Assembly (NCBI GenBank): GCA_019347795.1
Contig: JAHWKS010000081.1
Span: 1 to 11,092 of the forward strand
Origin: Planctomycetota bacterium
Lineage (GTDB): Bacteria; Planctomycetota; Planctomycetia; Pirellulales; Pirellulaceae
DNA: 11,092 bases
Reading direction: 5' to 3'
Both the position numbers and the translations under genes were made by a program. The notes below the pieces were generated by a model that worked only from the letters and a program-made list of their open reading frames with translations, was not told where the DNA came from and made no database searches. The stretch's first letter is position 1; every line of letters begins with the position of its first letter. Positions 2,191 through 11,092 of this stretch are shown here, piece by piece.

Positions 2191-3225
2191 TCAGGCTTCG
2201 ACCAAGTCGAGAAGCGACGCCGCTTTGTGATCGGCCTCCAGTCGTTCACCCGCATTCGGCATCTCGCGGGCGAGGCGAGTAAGAGCATCCACGACTGCGA
2301 AGATCGTGAGCGCTCCCTGCCGGCGAGCGGTCTCCAGGGCTTGGTTCGCCAGCGATCGGGTGACGCCGTGGCGGGCGAGGAGTTTCTGGGCCTCCTCGAC
2401 CTCGGCCGGGAGCTTGGTCTGCATCGCCATTTCGACGACTCGTACGAATGAGTCGCGGCGTTGGTCGCGGCGTTCGACTAACTGCTCGATCGTGCGGCGG
2501 ACGCCGGCGAGGGCTTCGTGGACATTGGCGGTGTGCTTTCGGCTGAACTCCTGCACTTCGACTGAGTCCCAGACGATGTGGTTCGCGCAGACCTTCTGAA
2601 ACCAGAAGGTCGAGACGCCGACTGAGCGCTTGCCGACCTCGCTGTTCCACAGGAAGAACCCGGGCGCGAATGTCTCGCCTTCGATCTCCGCCCAGCCGGT
2701 CGGGTCAACCAGGAACACGAAGAGGTCCTGCTCGCCGCAGTACAGCCCGGCGCCGCCGGTGGATGCCTGCTGCGGCGGTTGGAAATCGACGGCGAACTCC
2801 TGAACGACCTGGAGTAAGTCGGCGTTCCAGAGTCGCGTATAGCTGATGCCGTGGATCGAACGCAGGGAGCCGTTGCTCGTGAGAAGCTGCAGCGGCTTGT
2901 TGCCGCTTGGTAGCGTCTCGCGGAAGGCCTGGGCGGCCGTGTCCGGCGAGAGGCGATTGATGGTGTCTTTGCTCACGCGGGCTAGGCCGCACAACTGGGT
3001 GAAACTCCAGTCGTTCATGAGAAAGACACCGTCGCTGCCCGCTTCCAAGATTAAGCGGTTCTCCTGAGGACGCGGCGTCAGTTCCTGCGGCGGAAGCCAT
3101 CGGTCGGTGGCCCGCTCCTTATCGGCTCGGCAATGATCGACGAGAGCCGCAAGGGAAGGGAATTGTTCGTCGGGGGTGCGGCGGAACAGTTCGTTGTGAG
3201 CCTGCTTGAGGTTTTGCGTGCGCAT
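2191..3225 (-). CDS. DUF932 domain protein (plasmid/phage-type)
   Basis: This is a 344-residue member of the DUF932 family, common on plasmids, prophages and genomic islands and without an established biochemical function. The core spans about residues 55-235. It includes GVFLMNDWSFTQLCGLARVS, SNGSLRSIHGISYTRLWNAD (118-137), DLFVFLVDP (167-175) and GFFLWNSEVGKRSVGVSTFW followed by KVCANHIVWD (189-220). The C-terminal third is a helical, charged tail that includes a region of paired Arg/Glu (HEALAGVRRTIEQLVERRDQ). ATG 3225 was chosen because GAGGA (3232-3236) lies six bases upstream. The longer TTG/ATG-type extension to 3303 adds 26 atypical residues. It is the first gene of a minus-strand unit with the small partner at 1910-2178, and it diverges from the methyltransferase operon. 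No catalytic motif is visible. Confidence 0.85.
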   Translation of the reverse strand: MRTQNLKQAHNELFRRTPDEQFPSLAALVDHCRADKERATDRWLPPQELTPRPQENRLILEAGSDGVFLMNDWSFTQLCGLARVSKDTINRLSPDTAAQAFRETLPSGNKPLQLLTSNGSLRSIHGISYTRLWNADLLQVVQEFAVDFQPPQQASTGGAGLYCGEQDLFVFLVDPTGWAEIEGETFAPGFFLWNSEVGKRSVGVSTFWFQKVCANHIVWDSVEVQEFSRKHTANVHEALAGVRRTIEQLVERRDQRRDSFVRVVEMAMQTKLPAEVEEAQKLLARHGVTRSLANQALETARRQGALTIFAVVDALTRLAREMPNAGERLEADHKAASLLDLVEA

Positions 3226-3263
3226 AGCGATTCCTCGGTGCGAGAAGTGAAGGAAACTCCGCA

Positions 3264-3278
3264 GCGCCAGCCTGGCGC
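3264..3278. promoter_or_regulatory. Palindrome upstream of DUF932, possible operator
   Basis: GCGCCAG (3264-3270) and CTGGCGC (3272-3278) form a seven-plus-seven inverted repeat with a single central base. It lies 39-53 bases before the DUF932 start, between that start and the weak minus-strand promoter candidate. A one-base centre favours a protein-binding operator over an RNA hairpin. The binding protein is unknown. Confidence 0.4.
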
Positions 3279-3301
3279 GTTGGGAAGGAACAAGTGGGAT
3301 C

Positions 3302-3331
3302 ACGGTAGCGCGGAATCAGGCCGGCAGTCAA
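3302..3331 (-). promoter_or_regulatory. Candidate promoter for DUF932
   Basis: On the minus strand TTGACT (3331-3326) matches five of six bases of a -35 box. It is followed after 18 bases by TACCGT (3307-3302), a poor -10 box. The position is about 75 bases upstream of the DUF932 start. The weak -10 makes this tentative. Confidence 0.25.
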
Positions 3332-3467: not shown

Positions 3468-3701
3468 ATGGAAGAACGCTGGCTCTCTGTCGACGAGATT
3501 GCCACCCACCTCGGGATCAGCCGGGATACGGTCTACAAATGGATTTCGCGCAAACAAATGCCTGCTCACAAGCTCGGGAAGCTGTGGAAATTCCGCGTGA
3601 GCGAGGTTGACGCCTGGGTAAAGAGCGGCCGCACAAATGACGGCAACGCGCCGAATAACGATTCCGGGTCCGAATCCAAGGACGGAGGGGCCTCGCCGTG
3701 A
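3468..3701 (+). CDS. Excisionase-family helix-turn-helix protein, probable operon regulator
   Basis: This 77-residue protein consists mainly of one HTH_17 (excisionase/MerR-like winged helix) domain at residues 4-53. It shows the family pattern WLSVDEIATHLGISRDTVYK, then W, two basic residues and PAHKLGKLWKFRVSEVDAW. The remaining 24 residues are hydrophilic and probably disordered. Such proteins bind DNA in recombination directionality factors and also act as small regulators at the head of defence operons. No integrase or tyrosine recombinase is nearby, so a regulatory role fits better here. The stop overlaps the methyltransferase start (GTGA, 3698-3701), tying translation of the two genes together. 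The Shine-Dalgarno signal for ATG 3468 is weak (AAGG at 3451-3454, far upstream), so expression of this first gene may be low. Confidence 0.8.
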   Translation: MEERWLSVDEIATHLGISRDTVYKWISRKQMPAHKLGKLWKFRVSEVDAWVKSGRTNDGNAPNNDSGSESKDGGASP

Positions 3702-5020
3702 CGCAACAACGCACGTTCATCGATGTATTCGGAGGATGCGGGGGGCTATCGTTGGGCCTGATGCAAGCCGGCTGGAAAGGGCTGTTTGCCATCGAGGCGG
3801 ACACGTTCGCATTCGATAGCCTGAAATCCAACTTGCTGGCTAAGGGCGGTCGATACCGGTATTCCTGGCCCAAGTGGCTCGACAGAGAACCGTGCGAGGT
3901 CACAAAGTTCATTGAGACCCACCGCGACCAGCTCAAGAAGCTCGCAGGCAAGGTCTATTTGATTACGGGCGGGCCACCCTGCCAGGGGTTTTCGCTGGCG
4001 GGACGGCGCAAGAAAAACGACCCGCGAAATGGGCTGTTTCGCCACTATCTTGAAATCGTCAAGATCGTGCGCCCGCCGCTGCTCTTTTTCGAGAATGTGC
4101 GTGGCGTCGCAGTCGAGTTTGGAAAAAAACATCAAAAGAAACGGAAGCGCGGGCCCGGTCGCCCCAGGGTCGCATTCTCTGTCAAAATCCAACAGGAACT
4201 CGACGCGCTCGGATACAAGGTCTTCCCAAAGCTCGTTCGGGCTGCTGATTTCGGCGTTCCGCAGCTACGTCCACGCTACATCATGATTGCCATCGACAAG
4301 GTGGCGCTGTGTGGCGATGAGGAATTCACTCCTTTTACCTGGCTGGAAGAGATCAGGAAACAATTCCTTGCCGAGAAGGGGTTGCCGCCGCGAAGGCCAG
4401 TGTGGGTCAGGGAGGCCATTTCTGATCTTAAGCTGCGGGGCAAGAAGCTGGTTCCCTGTGAAGACACCGATGGCTACGAGCAAATCGAGTATAAGGGCCC
4501 TTTGACGCATTACCAGTCGCTGCTTCATGGGGACATGAATGGGACGGCGCCCAATAGCATGCGGATCATCAAGCACGGGGATGTGGTACGGGAGCGGTTC
4601 GCAAAGATACTTGAGACTGCCCGGCGCGGCGTGCAGCTCAGCCCAGCAGTGCGAAAGAAGCTGGGCATTAACAAGATGTGCGTCGTGCCATTGAACCCTG
4701 AAAAACCATCCCACACCCTGACGAGTTTGCCCGACGATCTAATCCACTATTCGGAACCACGTGTTCTGACGGCGCGCGAATACGCCAGGCTCCAGTCGTT
4801 TCCTGACTGGTTTGAATTCAAGGGTAAGTATTCAACGGGTGGCAACAGGCGCGTTCGCGAATGCCCTCGTTACACCCAAATAGCCAACGCGGTCCCTCCC
4901 TTCCTCGCGGAAGTGATCGGGCTGCTCCTGGCACGTGTTGCAGAGGAGATCGAAAATAAGCAGAAGCAGTCCAACGGCGCGACGAAAAGTCGCTCGATGC
5001 CTGAGGCAGGCCGGACATGA
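3698..5020 (+). CDS. DNA cytosine-C5 methyltransferase
   Basis: This 440-residue enzyme transfers a methyl group from S-adenosylmethionine to carbon 5 of cytosine in a specific DNA sequence. The C5-MTase motifs are present in order. Motif I is FIDVFGGCGGLSLGL (residues 7-21). Motif IV is GGPPCQGFSLAGRR with catalytic Cys95. Motif VI is FFENVRGV (130-137), motif VIII is PQLRPRY (188-194), motif IX is LTAREYARLQSFPD (357-370) and motif X is QIANAVPPF (394-402). The target-recognition region lies between VIII and IX (about 200-350), and the target site cannot be read from it. A basic insert between VI and VIII (142-158) contains GRPR in an AT-hook-like setting. The start is GTG 3698, with GGAGGGG (3684-3690) seven bases upstream and overlap with the HTH stop. 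Its own stop overlaps the next gene's start (ATGA, 5017-5020). All catalytic motifs look intact. It presumably marks self DNA for the downstream genes. Confidence 0.95.
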   Translation: MTQQRTFIDVFGGCGGLSLGLMQAGWKGLFAIEADTFAFDSLKSNLLAKGGRYRYSWPKWLDREPCEVTKFIETHRDQLKKLAGKVYLITGGPPCQGFSLAGRRKKNDPRNGLFRHYLEIVKIVRPPLLFFENVRGVAVEFGKKHQKKRKRGPGRPRVAFSVKIQQELDALGYKVFPKLVRAADFGVPQLRPRYIMIAIDKVALCGDEEFTPFTWLEEIRKQFLAEKGLPPRRPVWVREAISDLKLRGKKLVPCEDTDGYEQIEYKGPLTHYQSLLHGDMNGTAPNSMRIIKHGDVVRERFAKILETARRGVQLSPAVRKKLGINKMCVVPLNPEKPSHTLTSLPDDLIHYSEPRVLTAREYARLQSFPDWFEFKGKYSTGGNRRVRECPRYTQIANAVPPFLAEVIGLLLARVAEEIENKQKQSNGATKSRSMPEAGRT

Positions 5021-7251
5021 GTTACGTTCAGAATCCGCTGGTGTCATGGCTCCTCCTGCATGCATATGGCCAAGGGGGCACGGTAGCAGTACCGTCTTCG
5101 GGAACTGCCGGTCCCTTGGTGATGGGCGCGTTTCCCCCAGGGATCGATGACGTCCTCCACCATGTCACGAGCCGACATACGGCTTGGTCTGTGGCCACGC
5201 GCGAGTTTGACTGGTGCATCCTTGTAGGCGGTCCGGGCAACGGGAAATCGGAGGCCTTGCGATCGCTCGCTTCAATGCTTGGAATCACCCTTCCGCCCCG
5301 CGTTCCGGGACAGGCCGTACCGCGTACGATCCCCAGCGATTGGCCCGCCAATGCGCACCCTCTCACCAACGGCCTGCGGATAGCATTCGTAAACGATGCC
5401 TCCATCCCCAGGCAGGACTTGCCAGCGGATGGTAGTGTTCCTGGCCTCTTTCACGACATTGTCAACGCGCTAGAACGGACCGCCCAGGGTGAGCCAACCT
5501 CGCTGTTCGTGAACGTCAACCGCGGGATTTTGATTGAGGAACGCGGTGGGTTAAATGCGGTGTCCGACTGGAGTGCGGAGCCGCTGGCTCGGCGCCTGGG
5601 TGCGGCTGCTGTAGAGTGGCTCGCCGGTCCTGTGGATACCCTTGACGGGCTTGAGAGCATTCTTCGACCAAGTCCCGAGAGGCCGCACTACGGTCAATTC
5701 ACGCTGTCGCTGCCAACAGCAAGTGGCGAATCAGTGTCGATCTGCGTGCGTGTTGTTTTCCTCGATGTGCTTTCATTGCTTGAGCCGATGCCAGGAGCCG
5801 GGGCATCCGTGGTGGACTTCAGCACGTCGCCGCCGGAGGTGGCACAGTACCTGACGCTGGGGCGTCTGGTCAGTCTTGATGTGACCAGGGATAGTACTGT
5901 CGCAGGCACATTGGCTTCAATGTACGCAGAGGACGCCAACTGGGGTGGAGGAGGATGCAAAGATGCGTCCGGGCAGCTCTGTTCCGCCCATGCACTGTGC
6001 CCGTTTGCGCAGAATGCACATTGGCTAAGGGAGCCAGCACTCCGGCAGCGTTTCTTGGATATTCTTCGGGGGGCAGAGATAGCAGCCACTCGCAGGCTCA
6101 CCTACCGAGATTTACTTGGCCATGTCTCACTGGCCGTCGTCGGCGCTCCTGAGGAGGACTGGTTGGCGGGTAAACACCCATGCCAATGGGTTGCGGACAA
6201 TCACCAGCAAATCAGTAGTGGGGCGGGGCAGAAAGCAGCGACAATTCGGCTAGCACGTCACCGGATATATACGAACCTTTACCCTGGAGGCGGATTTCAG
6301 GTAAGTGGAGAAATCGCCCGGAGAACGCTCAAGGAGGATAGCGTCTTTGGTTCGATCATCGACTTGTTGGTTGTTGGGGGGGAGGCTGCTCGGCTCCAGC
6401 CGTTTGAGAAAGCATTCGCGGACATTGACCCGGCGCGAGACACGGAGAGTTGGGACGGCCTGCGAAAACGCGTTCTCGATGCGGTCGAGTCCCTGGATAT
6501 CGTTTCGCCTTCGGAGCAACTTGTCTCGTGGACGGAGCTCCCGGCGGCGGCGAGCTGTGAGATCGACAAACAGCTTGATCGCGTGCTGCGCGAGGAAATT
6601 GCCGTCGAATTACCAAAAGGCACAAGGGCATCCATCTCCCGCGTGCGAGTTCTTCGACGCTGGCGGGCCGTCATGCTCCTGCGCAATGTCGGCACGGCGC
6701 TTGGGCATCTGAGATACGCGGAGGCAATTGGATCATGGCTGGCCGAGCAGGAGAGTGCCCTGCTTGGGGGGCAGCGGCTGCGGCTCGGAGATGGCGTTAA
6801 CAACCTCATCATCCCGGCAGGAACAGGCGGAAAGGTGTTCATGGCCCCACTTCGGCCCAGGACATACTGCCTAACCGGCGACCTTGATCCGAATACGCTC
6901 CTAGTCACCGTCCAGACAAACGAGCTAGACGTTTCAATTGTTGCGCAGGGAGATGTGCTGGTAGCCGAGGTGAGGATGCGCCAGCGGGGAAGCTCGACGG
7001 AACCGCTTGCGACGCTGGCTATCGACTTGGCGGTGGCCAGGGAGGCCCTGCTGTATTCAGATGGCAAGACCGACGCCTTCACGGAAATTGGGGATACGGC
7101 GTTTGCAAGAATCGAGCGGGCGAGGGCCTCGCTCATCAGCCGGGAACGGCTCCGGAGAATCAATGTGTGGTTTACTGACGGCAAAGGTACGCCTTTCCAG
7201 CTTGTTCCAAGTCCAACCGGTGCGACTGCCCTTCGCGTTCAACGGGGTTGA
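5017..7251 (+). CDS. P-loop ATPase with Cys cluster, DptF-like
   Basis: This 744-residue protein has a clear Walker A motif, ILVGGPGNGKSEALRSLA (residues 68-85, Lys77). A hydrophobic strand with Asp (RVVFLDVL, 245-252) is a candidate Walker B. A Cys/His group at 314-328 (C314, C322, H325, C328) runs into CPFAQNAHWL, followed by an AEIAATRRLTYRDLLGHVSL helix pair (353-372). I associate this order, P-loop then Cys-rich CP...N then a TxRDLL helix, with the DptF ATPase of phosphorothioation-dependent restriction. The match is from memory and is partial. The C-terminal 230 residues are beta-rich (TYCLTGDLDPNTLLVTVQTN) and may be an added domain, since DptF proteins are usually shorter. No signal peptide or membrane segment is seen. 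ATG 5017 overlaps the methyltransferase stop, so the two are coupled. No nuclease motif is recognised. Confidence 0.65.
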   Translation: MSYVQNPLVSWLLLHAYGQGGTVAVPSSGTAGPLVMGAFPPGIDDVLHHVTSRHTAWSVATREFDWCILVGGPGNGKSEALRSLASMLGITLPPRVPGQAVPRTIPSDWPANAHPLTNGLRIAFVNDASIPRQDLPADGSVPGLFHDIVNALERTAQGEPTSLFVNVNRGILIEERGGLNAVSDWSAEPLARRLGAAAVEWLAGPVDTLDGLESILRPSPERPHYGQFTLSLPTASGESVSICVRVVFLDVLSLLEPMPGAGASVVDFSTSPPEVAQYLTLGRLVSLDVTRDSTVAGTLASMYAEDANWGGGGCKDASGQLCSAHALCPFAQNAHWLREPALRQRFLDILRGAEIAATRRLTYRDLLGHVSLAVVGAPEEDWLAGKHPCQWVADNHQQISSGAGQKAATIRLARHRIYTNLYPGGGFQVSGEIARRTLKEDSVFGSIIDLLVVGGEAARLQPFEKAFADIDPARDTESWDGLRKRVLDAVESLDIVSPSEQLVSWTELPAAASCEIDKQLDRVLREEIAVELPKGTRASISRVRVLRRWRAVMLLRNVGTALGHLRYAEAIGSWLAEQESALLGGQRLRLGDGVNNLIIPAGTGGKVFMAPLRPRTYCLTGDLDPNTLLVTVQTNELDVSIVAQGDVLVAEVRMRQRGSSTEPLATLAIDLAVAREALLYSDGKTDAFTEIGDTAFARIERARASLISRERLRRINVWFTDGKGTPFQLVPSPTGATALRVQRG

Positions 7252-7260
7252 GGTACCGTC

Positions 7261-8799
7261 ATGCCAAATAATTGGGTAAACGAACTACTACCGCTGCCTC
7301 GCCCTGAATACGGGAAGTTGACCGAATCGCTGTTGGTTGACCTCATATGGCGTTCTCCGGGTTCATCCCTTGCAACGCGAATGGGCGAGAAGACGCTATT
7401 TGAGCATCTGCGCGGGTTGAAAACGCCGGAGGATGATCCAGCGTTGCCGGAGCCGGAGCGCCTGGTTCCAAGGAGGTTGGGCGGAAAGCCGCTGACGGTT
7501 GAGACAATGCCGCTTGCCGAGTCCTTCAATCTGGCCGGGTTGGTCACGGCGCCAGTGGGGAACCAGGGACCGGTCATGCCGATCCTGGAGTCTCTCAAAG
7601 CACCTCGGGCCCGCGGTAACACATCGACGGCTTGTGTGCCAATTCACCCGGCAACGGTCGCACTTCAAACGCTGCATGGTCTTGTCAACAAACGAAGTCC
7701 TTCGGACCTTGCGGAGGCGATTGAGCAGGTGGGGTGGCTTGGTGGGGCACAGGCGGAAGGCGCGGTCGCAAGATCGTTTCTTTCACTGTTCAGCGGAACG
7801 CCCGATCCACGCAGAGGAGCGACGGGGGCAATCGAGTGGCTCCTTCCACAGATTGCCGCACATTCCTGGGCGGGTTTGCCCGCGAAGTTCGCAAAAGCGT
7901 CAACCAGTCTACCAAGTTGGCCGCATGTCGGACCCGTGGTGCCAGTTAGCAGGGTGCCATCGCGTCTTGCCACATGCCGGCAGACGCCGTTTGCTTGGTT
8001 TTGGAGGAAGTGGCAAAGCCTGTGCGACCCGACGAGCCGCTGGCACGAGCGTCTCCCGGCTCGAAGGTTTGTGGATTGGGCACTGTGCCTTTTGCGAACC
8101 GGGCTTGCATTCGCATATCTATGGGAAGCTGAGTTTTTTTGCCGTCTACACGCTATGGTCGCAAGGCGGCTTGGCGGGCTGGCGGCCCCCGGGCGCAGTC
8201 CCATCGAGTCATTGCTCGCCGAGGGAGTGGTACTGGCCACGATCGATCCTCCAAGCGTGCCCGCCAACCAAAAGGGGATATGGCCGGCGACGTCGGACTT
8301 GATCGCTCGCGGATGGAAGGCGAGGCATCAGCTTCTTGAGACCGCCGGCCTCGGGGATACCTTGCCCGACGCTCCCACGCTTTCTGGCGCACTGCAGCTT
8401 TGGGTCGATGGCCTGACCGCGGATCAGGTGCAGTCCATTGGGGAGAGCATTCGGGTCACCGGGTCGATGGCGAATAACCAAAAGGAGTTCGTGCGATACC
8501 TGCTCGTCCCCCGGTCGTCTGACGACGATTCCGTTGACCAGGCGGACTTCTACTCGCTTGCGAGGACGAACAGTCGGCACATCTGGTTTCGCCCCGGCCC
8601 GGAATGGCTCGTCGTGGTGACGAGCTTGCTCTGCACCGGACCCGGAGGATTCTGCACGCTCGGCGACTTGACACGGGATCTCGGCTCCCTTGGTATGCGG
8701 GTGGAACGTTCGGTTCTGGTGGGCATGTTGGAGGAAGCAGGATTGAGTACAGACAGCCCAGACGCCGACGATGCGCTGGTGATCAGGTCGGGTTTCTGA
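7261..8799 (+). CDS. Uncharacterised protein, DptG-like C-terminus
   Basis: This 512-residue protein has no catalytic motif that I recognise. It is mostly helical by composition. A hydrophobic stretch at 272-296 (DWALCLLRTGLAFAYLWEAE) is more likely a buried helix than a membrane span. The last 80 residues (about 430-512) stand out. They run as an IWFRPGPEWLVVVTSLLC strand-helix, then CTLGDLTRDLGSLGMRVERS, then LVGMLEEAGLSTDSPDADDA, ending in a short strand. This looks like a winged-helix-type fold. It recalls the C-terminal tail of DptG proteins, where a helix and an RG-type turn lead to a Ser-Asp-Ala-rich end. ATG 7261 is preceded by TGAGGT (7249-7254), part of which is the previous stop. 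Between an ATPase and a very long third protein, it may be a scaffold or adaptor. The family call is tentative. Confidence 0.55.
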   Translation: MPNNWVNELLPLPRPEYGKLTESLLVDLIWRSPGSSLATRMGEKTLFEHLRGLKTPEDDPALPEPERLVPRRLGGKPLTVETMPLAESFNLAGLVTAPVGNQGPVMPILESLKAPRARGNTSTACVPIHPATVALQTLHGLVNKRSPSDLAEAIEQVGWLGGAQAEGAVARSFLSLFSGTPDPRRGATGAIEWLLPQIAAHSWAGLPAKFAKASTSLPSWPHVGPVVPVSRVPSRLATCRQTPFAWFWRKWQSLCDPTSRWHERLPARRFVDWALCLLRTGLAFAYLWEAEFFCRLHAMVARRLGGLAAPGRSPIESLLAEGVVLATIDPPSVPANQKGIWPATSDLIARGWKARHQLLETAGLGDTLPDAPTLSGALQLWVDGLTADQVQSIGESIRVTGSMANNQKEFVRYLLVPRSSDDDSVDQADFYSLARTNSRHIWFRPGPEWLVVVTSLLCTGPGGFCTLGDLTRDLGSLGMRVERSVLVGMLEEAGLSTDSPDADDALVIRSGF

Positions 8800-8816
8800 G
8801 GTGAAGGAGATGCCGG

Positions 8817-11092
8817 ATGCCAGTCATGGGACATGCCATTGGCCGGTACCTCGCATCATTGCGAGGTCTTTACTCTGTTGAGTTGCCCGAGTCACTTGCA
8901 TCGGAGATGGTCGAGCTTGTGCAGCAAGCAAACGCGAACGTGGCGAACCGGGCCTTTCTCGTGTCTTCGGCTGCTCCTCTGCCCGGCATGGCAAACGCGA
9001 CGATTAGTTGGCGGCAACTGCTCGCCTGGCGCACTGACGAAGATCGGGTTTTTGTCTGGCAACGCGGGCTACAGGAGCCGGATTCGTCATTCCAGAGCGT
9101 CGTTCGCCCGTTCATCTCGCGGCGGTTTCCGGGGGCCGGTGGGGGCGAATGTAGCCTGCCGCTACTGGTCCGTGCGTGTGTCCGCGAGTTGTGGCAACGT
9201 CGAGGGTGGTGGCCCACTGGAGACACATACGAGGCCTTTCTAACGACGGCCTCTTGGGTCGCCGACCTCTTGTCCACGATGTTTGAAAGGGCTGGCAATA
9301 CGCCCGGCGTCCACTGGAGTGATCGATTCCTGGTGCATCTCGCATCGATGTTGGACAACGCCGACGCCGCCTTGGAAACATTTGATGCGGATGCGGGTGT
9401 TTTGGTCCCGCGCCATGCTTGGGAAATTGTCCGGCTGTCAGGTCTCCCGTTACCCGCAGCACTTGTTGGCGTCGCAAATCGATTCTTGAACGCACCTGAG
9501 TCTTTGCCGCCGAATCAGGTGAAGAAAGTGACTGAGTTGTGGGAGGACATCGTTCAGTCATTTCTCCTGCGCGAAGGAGGTGTACCCGAATTCCTGCTGG
9601 CGCTCGACCGTGAAAGCGTTGGTCCGGTGAAGGTGAGTCCTTGGCGGGACCTCGACTGGAATCAGCTTATGGGCGTTCCGCCGGATGCTCCTGCGCCGGT
9701 GGTTGGGGCCGCTGTTTTCGCATCGGCTCCGTCGCCGACGGTCTTGTCGGACACGATTCCGAATACGTCGGCACCGGAGCGGCCCTCCTGGTGGGGAGTT
9801 ACAACAGGGCACCTTGAAAATGCCCGCGCTCACCTGCGTAAGTCGATGCCCCTTTCTCCGGACGACACGAGGCCGGGCTTTCTCGCTCTGGGGGGAACCG
9901 GATCGGCGCCGTTCGTGCTTGACACTCGTCCCGGCACCGTCGCCCACGCGCATACGCCTACCAAGTGGCGGTCGAGGGTTGTCCTGGGTGGACTTGGGCT
10001 GCGGTACAAGGAAGATTGGAGGGCGCTGCATGTCGGGGACATCGAACCTGCCGCTGCGGACGCAGGCGATGCATGGGTGGCTCCGGCGAGCATCAAGCTC
10101 GAAATGAAGGGTTGCAGCTTCAGCCAGATGCAGGTGACGGCGAGCGCGGGCGGGCAGTTGCAGATCGCATTCGATTTGCAGGTTGAATTCACCGCCAGCC
10201 GCGATCGGCAGTCGGGCGATTTATCAGGATCTTGGAACCCGGAACGGAGATTAAAGGCGACGATCGATGTCAGGCTGAGACATGGTGGCCAATGGGAGGC
10301 GGCGCGGCGCGTAGCGACCGAAATCAAGGTCATTATCCCCTCGCCGTTCTCCCCGACCGTATTGGTAACGGCAGACGACAAGTTGAAAGCGGTTGGGCCA
10401 GACGATGAGGAATCATTTGCAGCAGTAAATGCTGGTGCCACTACATGGTCCGCGGTGACCACACCAACAATCCTGCTCGACGAAGAAGGCCGCTTCGCGG
10501 TAGGCGTCTACGACGGCGTGCTCGAACCGTGGTCGGCAGCGTTTCGGGACGTAGGCGAGCCAGCCGTAGACGATGTTGCATTTGCGCCTTCACCCAGCGG
10601 CTTCTTCCCGGCTGCAGAACACGACCTGGACGACGGCGTGGTCGTTTCTGACAATCATCCGATGCATGGCGGCGAAATTGCCGTCTTCCGGGTGAAGGAG
10701 CGGTCGAAGAACCTCTCATCGGGTATCCTTTCCGCGGTACGCGGCCTCCCGTCCGGGCGGCGCCCACCGGCGGCAGCCGCCCGCGAGGGCGTGCTCGGCC
10801 AATACCAGGACAGCATCACACCGGTGCTCTGCGCCTCTTCGCCCGCATCGCTGGATTCGCTGTACCAGCACGTCATTGCTGCTTCCGACGACCCTATCAC
10901 ATGGACGGAGCACCTAGGGGGACCAGCTCCGCAGATCCTGTTCGATAGGCCAGACGGATTTGTATTGCCAGGGGTCGGCAATGGCCCGACGCTCTCACTT
11001 ACGGCTACGCCGGAGTGGGCAAATTTCATGGCCGTGATGGGGCAAGTGTGCGCCGGGATCGGACTACGCCCAGGGGCGGAAACGATGTGGTT
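8817..11092 (+). CDS. Large uncharacterised protein, 3' partial, DptH-like by position
   Basis: The frame is open from ATG 8817 to the end of the window (758 codons plus two bases), so the gene continues beyond it. The start is supported by AAGGAG (8804-8809) seven bases upstream, 17 bases after the previous stop. Residues 1-100 look like a compact alpha/beta domain (AIGRYLASLRGLYSVELPES, then TISWRQLLAWRTDEDRVFVW). A helical region follows (115-265), then a Pro/Ala/Ser linker (286-325). A beta-sandwich-like part spans about 385-565 (QLQIAFDLQVEFTAS, LKATIDVRLRH). The last part is mixed (IAVFRVKERSKNLSSGIL; VLGQYQDSITPVLC). No P-loop, helicase or nuclease motif occurs in the visible part. In Dpt systems the third protein, DptH, is a very long FtsK/HerA-type protein with its ATPase near the C-terminus, which would fall outside this window. 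Druantia DruE is another possible relative. Confidence 0.6.
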   Translation, partial: MPVMGHAIGRYLASLRGLYSVELPESLASEMVELVQQANANVANRAFLVSSAAPLPGMANATISWRQLLAWRTDEDRVFVWQRGLQEPDSSFQSVVRPFISRRFPGAGGGECSLPLLVRACVRELWQRRGWWPTGDTYEAFLTTASWVADLLSTMFERAGNTPGVHWSDRFLVHLASMLDNADAALETFDADAGVLVPRHAWEIVRLSGLPLPAALVGVANRFLNAPESLPPNQVKKVTELWEDIVQSFLLREGGVPEFLLALDRESVGPVKVSPWRDLDWNQLMGVPPDAPAPVVGAAVFASAPSPTVLSDTIPNTSAPERPSWWGVTTGHLENARAHLRKSMPLSPDDTRPGFLALGGTGSAPFVLDTRPGTVAHAHTPTKWRSRVVLGGLGLRYKEDWRALHVGDIEPAAADAGDAWVAPASIKLEMKGCSFSQMQVTASAGGQLQIAFDLQVEFTASRDRQSGDLSGSWNPERRLKATIDVRLRHGGQWEAARRVATEIKVIIPSPFSPTVLVTADDKLKAVGPDDEESFAAVNAGATTWSAVTTPTILLDEEGRFAVGVYDGVLEPWSAAFRDVGEPAVDDVAFAPSPSGFFPAAEHDLDDGVVVSDNHPMHGGEIAVFRVKERSKNLSSGILSAVRGLPSGRRPPAAAAREGVLGQYQDSITPVLCASSPASLDSLYQHVIAASDDPITWTEHLGGPAPQILFDRPDGFVLPGVGNGPTLSLTATPEWANFMAVMGQVCAGIGLRPGAETMW

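Follow-up and report, generated by a model that had tools for sequence, protein, structure and literature searches.

A C5-cytosine methyltransferase associated with a DndFGH-type three-gene module points to a probable methylation-based restriction system in a Planctomycetota bacterium

What is a three-gene module resembling the restriction half of phosphorothioate immunity doing directly behind a DNA cytosine methyltransferase? The question is raised by an 11,092-nucleotide stretch of DNA from a Planctomycetota bacterium of the family Pirellulaceae (GenBank assembly GCA_019347795.1, contig JAHWKS010000081.1), which we call the window and which is the entire contig C412 of a genome assembled in 976 contigs (5.9 Mb, 72% complete). 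Five open frames lie on its plus strand, at the positions and in the tight spacing that a preliminary description had given them: a helix-turn-helix (HTH) protein and a C5-cytosine DNA methyltransferase (C5-MTase) that overlap by 4 bp, the F protein, which overlaps the methyltransferase by another 4 bp, and then G and H after gaps of 9 and 17 bases, respectively. We consider it likely that this operon is a restriction-modification-like (R-M-like) defence system, in which the C5-MTase would mark self DNA and a DndFGH-type complex would attack unmethylated DNA. Its gene content, homology, conserved motifs and association are observed directly.

The association emerged from a profile scan of genome contigs with a 30-row F alignment, which returned 67 loci, an earlier contig scan with a single F protein having found no relative. 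Two fragments were excluded, one with the methyltransferase present (L008) and one with the HTH gene and no methyltransferase in 4 kb (L013), leaving 65 loci from Pseudomonadota, Chloroflexota, Planctomycetota, Gemmatimonadota, Verrucomicrobiota, Bacteroidota and Myxococcota. A G frame was identified in 63 of them and an H frame likewise in 63 (G is not whole in L030 and L031; L027 and L046 stop before the end of H); a few loci are near copies of each other (L034/L035, L016/L018, L028/L033), which means that not every count is independent. A profile made from the methyltransferases placed a C5-MTase no more than 0.9 kb from the F-G-H block in 63 of the 65 loci: 53 times upstream on the same strand (at most 732 bases away, mostly below 50), once upstream on the other strand and nine times downstream. 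METHYLTRANSFERASE belongs to the F-G-H system. The preliminary description had asked whether the gene order is kept in other genomes, which it is, across many phyla and beyond chance, and had named homologues that never co-occur with the methyltransferase as a possible refutation, which this count speaks against. Two loci have no adjacent methyltransferase: L021, and L027 with a contig that breaks off within H.

For comparison, seven Dpt and seven Ssp loci were assembled from 13 plasmid-collection records and one genome, with dptG of L102 (in two pieces) and dptH of L103 (not found whole) left out of the Dpt profiles; the methyltransferase profile matched none of either seven, their flanks being short in part (0.9 to 12 kb downstream). 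With E. coli DptF and DptG as queries, protein searches gave only close relatives among the matches listed. Plasmid loci recruited by H are complete and carry the methyltransferase in three cases (L090, L091, L121), L091 lying on R. leguminosarum pRL31b4 (CP050082); in L120 (7548-11502, S. fredii p64a), a truncated H stands beside an IS21-like insertion and Vsr is kept, in a stretch that holds neither F, G nor the methyltransferase. Among viral contigs there was one locus with F, and none with G in the G search; the viral-collection contig L122 is complete, with methyltransferase and Vsr. A partial F match at L070 (2-2751, genome G011) is preceded by a frame that, read by eye, resembles the window methyltransferase.

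The methyltransferase itself (3698..5020, plus strand, 440 aa) passes Pfam PF00145 with 162 bits against a cut-off of 22 (2.3e-47). Its motifs IV (PPCQ), VI (ENV), VIII and X, which bear out the earlier assignment, are kept position by position in 54-61 of 61 aligned methyltransferases, and the catalytic Cys95 of motif IV (3974..3985, plus strand) is a cysteine in 60 of the 61, with one gap. The target-recognition region can be aligned end to end with that of the window enzyme in 49 of 60 relatives, and in the other 11 it cannot. Upstream, the small HTH protein (3468..3701, plus strand, 77 aa) is MAD1/excisionase-like and a probable regulator; it scores 78.8 bits against NF047737 (antiphage_MADS1, MAD1), just under the cut-off of 80, and 1.5e-17 against HTH_17, and has relatives in L013, L028 and L033.

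F (5017..7251, plus strand, 744 aa) is, to judge from profile comparison, a homologue of DndF and SspF: hhalign gives 92.6/96.7% to SspF and 21.9/76.1% to DptF, with controls below 1% and with the near clade to DptF alone weak, and a PADLOC SspF match is weak as well (0.0044). Its P-loop stands in a Walker A motif, GGPGNGKS (5227..5250, plus strand), with six positions invariant and two nearly so in 30 near homologues; a Walker A is present in all 30 of these and in 58 of 58 distant ones. NDAS (5392..5403, plus strand), a candidate for the ND motif of DndF described in passages of PMC10853773, is invariant in the 30 near proteins, and the pattern [NQ]DA recurs in 55 of the 58 distant ones, in one of seven DptF and in no SspF of seven. 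NVNRG (5512..5526, plus strand) may occupy the Walker B place with an Asn; the pattern [NC]xNRG is found in 30/30 near and 56/58 distant F, and in 0/7 DptF and 0/7 SspF. A profile alignment pairs these two motifs with LDAT and GINIG of DptF. The cysteines C314, C322 and C328 (5956..6000, plus strand), a candidate zinc site, are invariant or nearly so in the near clade, so that the P-loop protein with a Cys cluster seen earlier is confirmed; the pattern fits 26 of 30 near and three of 58 distant F. The DptF proteins of the proteobacterial comparison loci measure 529-549 aa, about 200 aa less than F, and one metagenomic F homologue (P0114, 1028 aa) has an extra N-terminal part, whose PF26345 listing a Pfam scan did not reproduce. 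At least 131 homologues occur in a large protein set, and the names among the matches listed are "hypothetical protein". Neither Pfam nor NCBIfam assigns F, G or the partial H to a convincing family, and PADLOC adds nothing beyond the weak SspF match of F; profile searches of the PDB, with F, G and the mid-part of H as queries, brought up no credible match.

G (7261..8799, plus strand, 512 aa; about 490-535 aa across relatives) has the DndG fold, an assignment that we owe to fold comparison (VIA-align) because sequence comparisons are silent: no sequence similarity was found between SspG and DptG, SspG and G, or DptG and G. H (8817..11092, plus strand) is represented in the window by the N-terminal 758 aa of a DndH/SspH-like nuclease-translocase, the frame being open at the window end because contig C412 stops there without a stop codon. 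The C-terminus of the L004 H, used as a query against the window's genome, found a single place, on contig C859 at 51% identity; the window H aligns to residues 1-748 of the L004 protein and the C859 frame from 753, so that the latter opens where the window stops. On the minus strand of C859 (genome G000), an H frame of 1224 aa without a stop (L113:1860-5531) is adjoined, with a 4-bp overlap, by a 237-aa HhH-GPD glycosylase (L113:1150-1860). From the identity and the matching breakpoint, the rest of the window H very probably lies there, the physical link between the two unjoined contigs being inferred.

Read through the relatives and C859, H has the DndFGH-type architecture of about 1700-1950 aa with a nuclease and a C-terminal HerA/FtsK-type ATPase, both outside the window; relatives keep to this length except for the split H of L003 (13811-19687), a 1396-aa and a 510-aa part with the motor region in the latter. 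All 62 full H proteins share D1248, R1265, D1267, E1288, K1290 and Q1315, among others (L004 numbering), residues that at sequence level make up an R-x-D...E-x-K, PD-(D/E)XK-type pattern; it appears as RAD...EVK in the C859 piece, beside a Walker A motif, a mad8 match (5.5e-14) and weak DUF87 and DndH matches, and aligns with AD...EAK of SspH in six of seven cases. The motor of the C859 piece is 59% identical to that of L004, 52% to L005 and 21% to L002, and the region before it 47% to L002. In L002 (9935-21722, Chloroploca), the N-terminal part of H is like that of the window clade and the motor is of SspH/FtsK-alpha type (SspH-type FtsK domain, 1.3e-126), so the C-terminal motor is exchanged even between near relatives; passages of PMC10853773 report HerA/FtsK captures for DndH. 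The C5-MTase of L002 lies downstream on the opposite strand.

Many loci also carry a repair gene. Among the 63 with H, Vsr follows H directly in 34 and an HhH-GPD protein stands next to H in 11; in L005 and L026, Vsr sits at another place in the locus, L003 has HhH-GPD after its split H, no locus has both and 15 have neither. HhH-GPD was confirmed by Pfam in the six proteins tested; that of L038 is only 119 aa long and that of L007 lies on the other strand, and Vsr is annotated in the plasmid loci L091 and L120. The six nearest relatives (L002-L006 and L014) divide into three with a glycosylase, one with Vsr and two with neither. For the glycosylase on C859, the nearest solved structure is 1kea, a G-T mismatch enzyme (116.6 bits, with MutY structures next at 109), which makes a G-T mismatch specificity likely; the PADLOC label is REase_II, a type II nicking endonuclease (5.8e-33). 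Vsr and MIG.Mth repair the T:G mismatches left by deaminated 5-methylcytosine (5mC). Because such a gene accompanies the system, it argues for genuine methylation of the host genome by these methyltransferases. On a quick F tree with long branches, Vsr and HhH-GPD alternate with at least three changes, and nearest neighbours predict which is present in 41 of 47 cases by methyltransferase, 42 by F and 43 by G or H, too close to decide which lineage the repair gene follows.

Pairwise identities across 61 systems co-vary at rho 0.974-0.977 among F, G and the N-terminal part of H, and at rho 0.48-0.50 between the methyltransferase and F, G and H. The window methyltransferase is closest to those of the Phycisphaerae loci L028 and L033 (57% and 56%), which are not among the nearest by F; the window F is closest to L002-L004 (44-47%). 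Because the first correlation is high, the second lower and the nearest relatives different, F-G-H moves as a unit, with the C5-MTase exchanged.

By analogy with its relatives, the system may work as follows. The C5-MTase would methylate one cytosine of a fixed site across the whole host genome, and F, G and H would form a DndFGH-type surveillance complex. In it, G would contribute to DNA binding and to the distinction between marked and unmarked sites, F would act as a nucleotide-binding P-loop switch, and H would travel along DNA on its HerA/FtsK-type motor and make cuts or nicks by means of its D...ExK nuclease. Methylation would hold the complex back on self DNA, leaving unmethylated phage or plasmid DNA open to attack; the glycosylase, or Vsr in other lineages, would repair T:G mismatches from deaminated 5mC, and the HTH protein is a probable regulator. 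That the proteins form a complex, attack unmodified DNA and act in defence is projected mostly from SspFGH and DndFGH, and it is because of the homology to these that we propose 5mC as the self mark in place of phosphorothioate. SspFGH damages non-modified phage DNA and FGH is toxic in cells lacking the modification, according to passages of PMC8092258, and portions of PMC12707154 describe DndFGH as toxic in some cases without its modification and suitably modified DNA as protected.

Several points weigh against this proposal. The window holds H only in part; no exact overlap of at least 12 bases joins the ends of C412 and C859, and the continuation of H is inferred. A search of six DptH for the H nuclease pattern found none. 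FGH is intact in L021, where the 20-kb stretch contains no C5-MTase and one lies about 14.8 kb upstream, probably on the same contig; this Verrucomicrobia locus (5843-19566) has a reverse transcriptase upstream of FGH and an HNH protein on the downstream side. An annotated "phosphorothioation-associated putative methyltransferase" is present in three of the seven Ssp loci (L106, L110, L111), for which reason a methyltransferase near FGH is not decisive alone, and the methyltransferase co-varies weakly with its partners. Since DndFGH often stands without modification genes, as passages of PMC10853773 state, FGH need not read a mark at all.

In another reading, a Dcm-like regulatory methyltransferase and its repair gene merely neighbour a standalone DndFGH. 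The differing histories of methyltransferase and FGH, at a rho of about 0.5, would suit it; we hold it improbable, given adjacency in 63 of 65 loci in at least seven phyla versus 0 of 14 Dpt and Ssp loci, the 4-bp overlaps in the window operon, and the repeated swap of the methyltransferase for another C5-MTase, which argues that its function is needed. FGH might instead recognise modified nucleotides of an invader, in a type IV-like attack that requires methylation, or respond when host methylation is lost, and kill the cell (abortive infection), the methyltransferase then being the guarded component. F retains its nucleotide-binding motif, and PMC10853773 proposes DndF as a sensor of phage-modified nucleotides; yet a complex cutting at 5mC would attack its own methylated host, the methyltransferase is nearly always adjacent, and the studied relative SspFGH attacks unmodified DNA (PMC8092258, in passages), all of which makes sensing of this kind rather unlikely.

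Two catalogued systems also resemble the locus in anatomy. MADS is the methylation-associated defence system, based on base methylation, and the locus could be a reduced MADS whose usual methyltransferase and accessory genes were replaced by a C5-MTase, a reading that overlaps the R-M-like proposal and does not exclude it. The MAD1-like score of the HTH protein and mad8 matches in 30 of 34 H C-termini, as in the C859 piece, favour it. L100 suggests that FGH-like proteins occur in MADS too: on this 20-kb contig, which has one and the same frame, oppositely oriented, at either end and in which no C5-MTase was found, the stretch 7340-18058 encodes an SspF-matching protein of 1286 aa with a long N-terminal part, followed by a mad7-like G of 601 aa and an H of 1673 aa. 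Against this, the window F, G and H piece match none of mad3-mad7 at E 1, the methyltransferase has no mad2 among the matches listed (25 of 62 families), the mad8 model spans the ATPase region only, and here there are a C5-MTase, F, G, H and a repair gene with no further MADS-type genes between the five frames; we regard a MADS variant as unlikely while taking it seriously. Druantia type II comprises the C5-MTase DruM with DruF, DruG and DruE. Gene count, order and the C5-MTase, which matches DruM models at 1.9e-53, recall it, but an MTase_II model fits the methyltransferase better (2.2e-73), and relatives of H end in a HerA/FtsK-type ATPase and carry the D...ExK motif, a different effector. 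At E 1, no Dru model matched F, G or the partial H of the window, and none matched the five proteins of four relatives or 43 F at 0.01, or 34 H C-termini among the matches listed (25 of 41 families). Druantia, already strongly disfavoured, is scarcely credible. The preliminary description had named a Druantia match as a possible refutation, which did not occur, and had likened the last three genes to Dpt: the curated DptF, DptG and DptH models do not match the window proteins, and the Dpt-like module stands on the homology of F to DndF/SspF, the DndG fold and the H architecture.

SspABCD-SspFGH, as passages of PMC8092258 present it, likewise has modification genes upstream of F-G-H, and shares a homologous F, the aligned nuclease motif and, in L002, the FtsK domain of H; here a C5-MTase replaces the sulfur pathway, a T:G repair gene is added, and F, G and H are only remotely similar. 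The difference from DndABCDE-DndFGH (DptFGH) is again a C5-MTase in place of dnd genes; the window shows no recognisable dndBCDE or sspBCD modification genes, a negative that covers this contig and not the remainder of the genome. Some type II R-M loci combine a C5-MTase with a T:G mismatch repair gene (Vsr or MIG.Mth), as this system does, and differ in having a simple endonuclease where here a three-protein module with a motor forms the restriction part. A C5-MTase with DndFGH or SspFGH was not described among the matches listed in searches of titles and abstract openings of open-licence PMC literature, which is not proof of novelty. The abstract and passages of PMC10853773 tie cytosine methylases to DndDE/CxC systems, not to DndFGH, and describe DndFGH as having no inbuilt modification module; in the system reported here, that module is inbuilt.

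The system is rare. In the window's phylum, two of 294 genomes hold it, including the window's own and a partial match in G011; in the class of G298, six of 289 match, strongly in G298 (the source of L036) and weakly over a short P-loop stretch in five. The DptF model TIGR03238 passed its cut-off in one of 185 genomes in the class of G294, in 0 of 199 genomes of the window's phylum and in 0 of six system-holding genomes, counts that do not establish absence, no control having given a signal. The PADLOC mad6 model was dropped as a marker after matching 153 of 185 genomes, probably by catching common kinases. Upstream of the operon, the window holds cut-short IS66-family remnants (225-1479; TnpC leucine-zipper domain LZ_Tnp_IS66, 2e-6), with short TnpA/TnpB-like frames recognised by eye, and, on the minus strand and divergent from the operon, a 370-aa phage/plasmid-type protein (2191-3303; DUF932, 2.7e-6; TIGR03299 below cut-off).

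For a coupling of DndFGH-type restriction to base methylation, anatomy and association are strong and homology is good, and function is argued by analogy. A three-protein machine mainly known as the cutting half of phosphorothioate immunity probably serves a methylation-based system outside the catalogues searched, and three families of hypothetical proteins gain a meaning at once. To our knowledge, two questions about these complexes are not settled: how DndFGH and SspFGH tell self from non-self, and why dnd modification genes are often missing beside DndFGH. With one readily assayed C5-MTase in place of a whole sulfur pathway, self-recognition becomes directly testable, by swapping the mark and keeping the engine. 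The family also gives the annotated DNA cytosine methyltransferase and Vsr pairs of rhizobia, sphingomonads and pseudomonads a partner and a reason to exist. At slightly short of even confidence, we suggest that the restriction engine formed by DndFGH-type complexes is general and independent of any one mark, and that phosphorothioation (Dnd, Ssp) and 5-methylcytosine were each linked to it separately. If so, FGH would read a disturbance at a DNA site and not sulfur itself, and many a C5-MTase that looks like an orphan Dcm and is paired with Vsr or a glycosylase would supply the modification half of a multi-subunit R-M system, in a class so far unrecognised.
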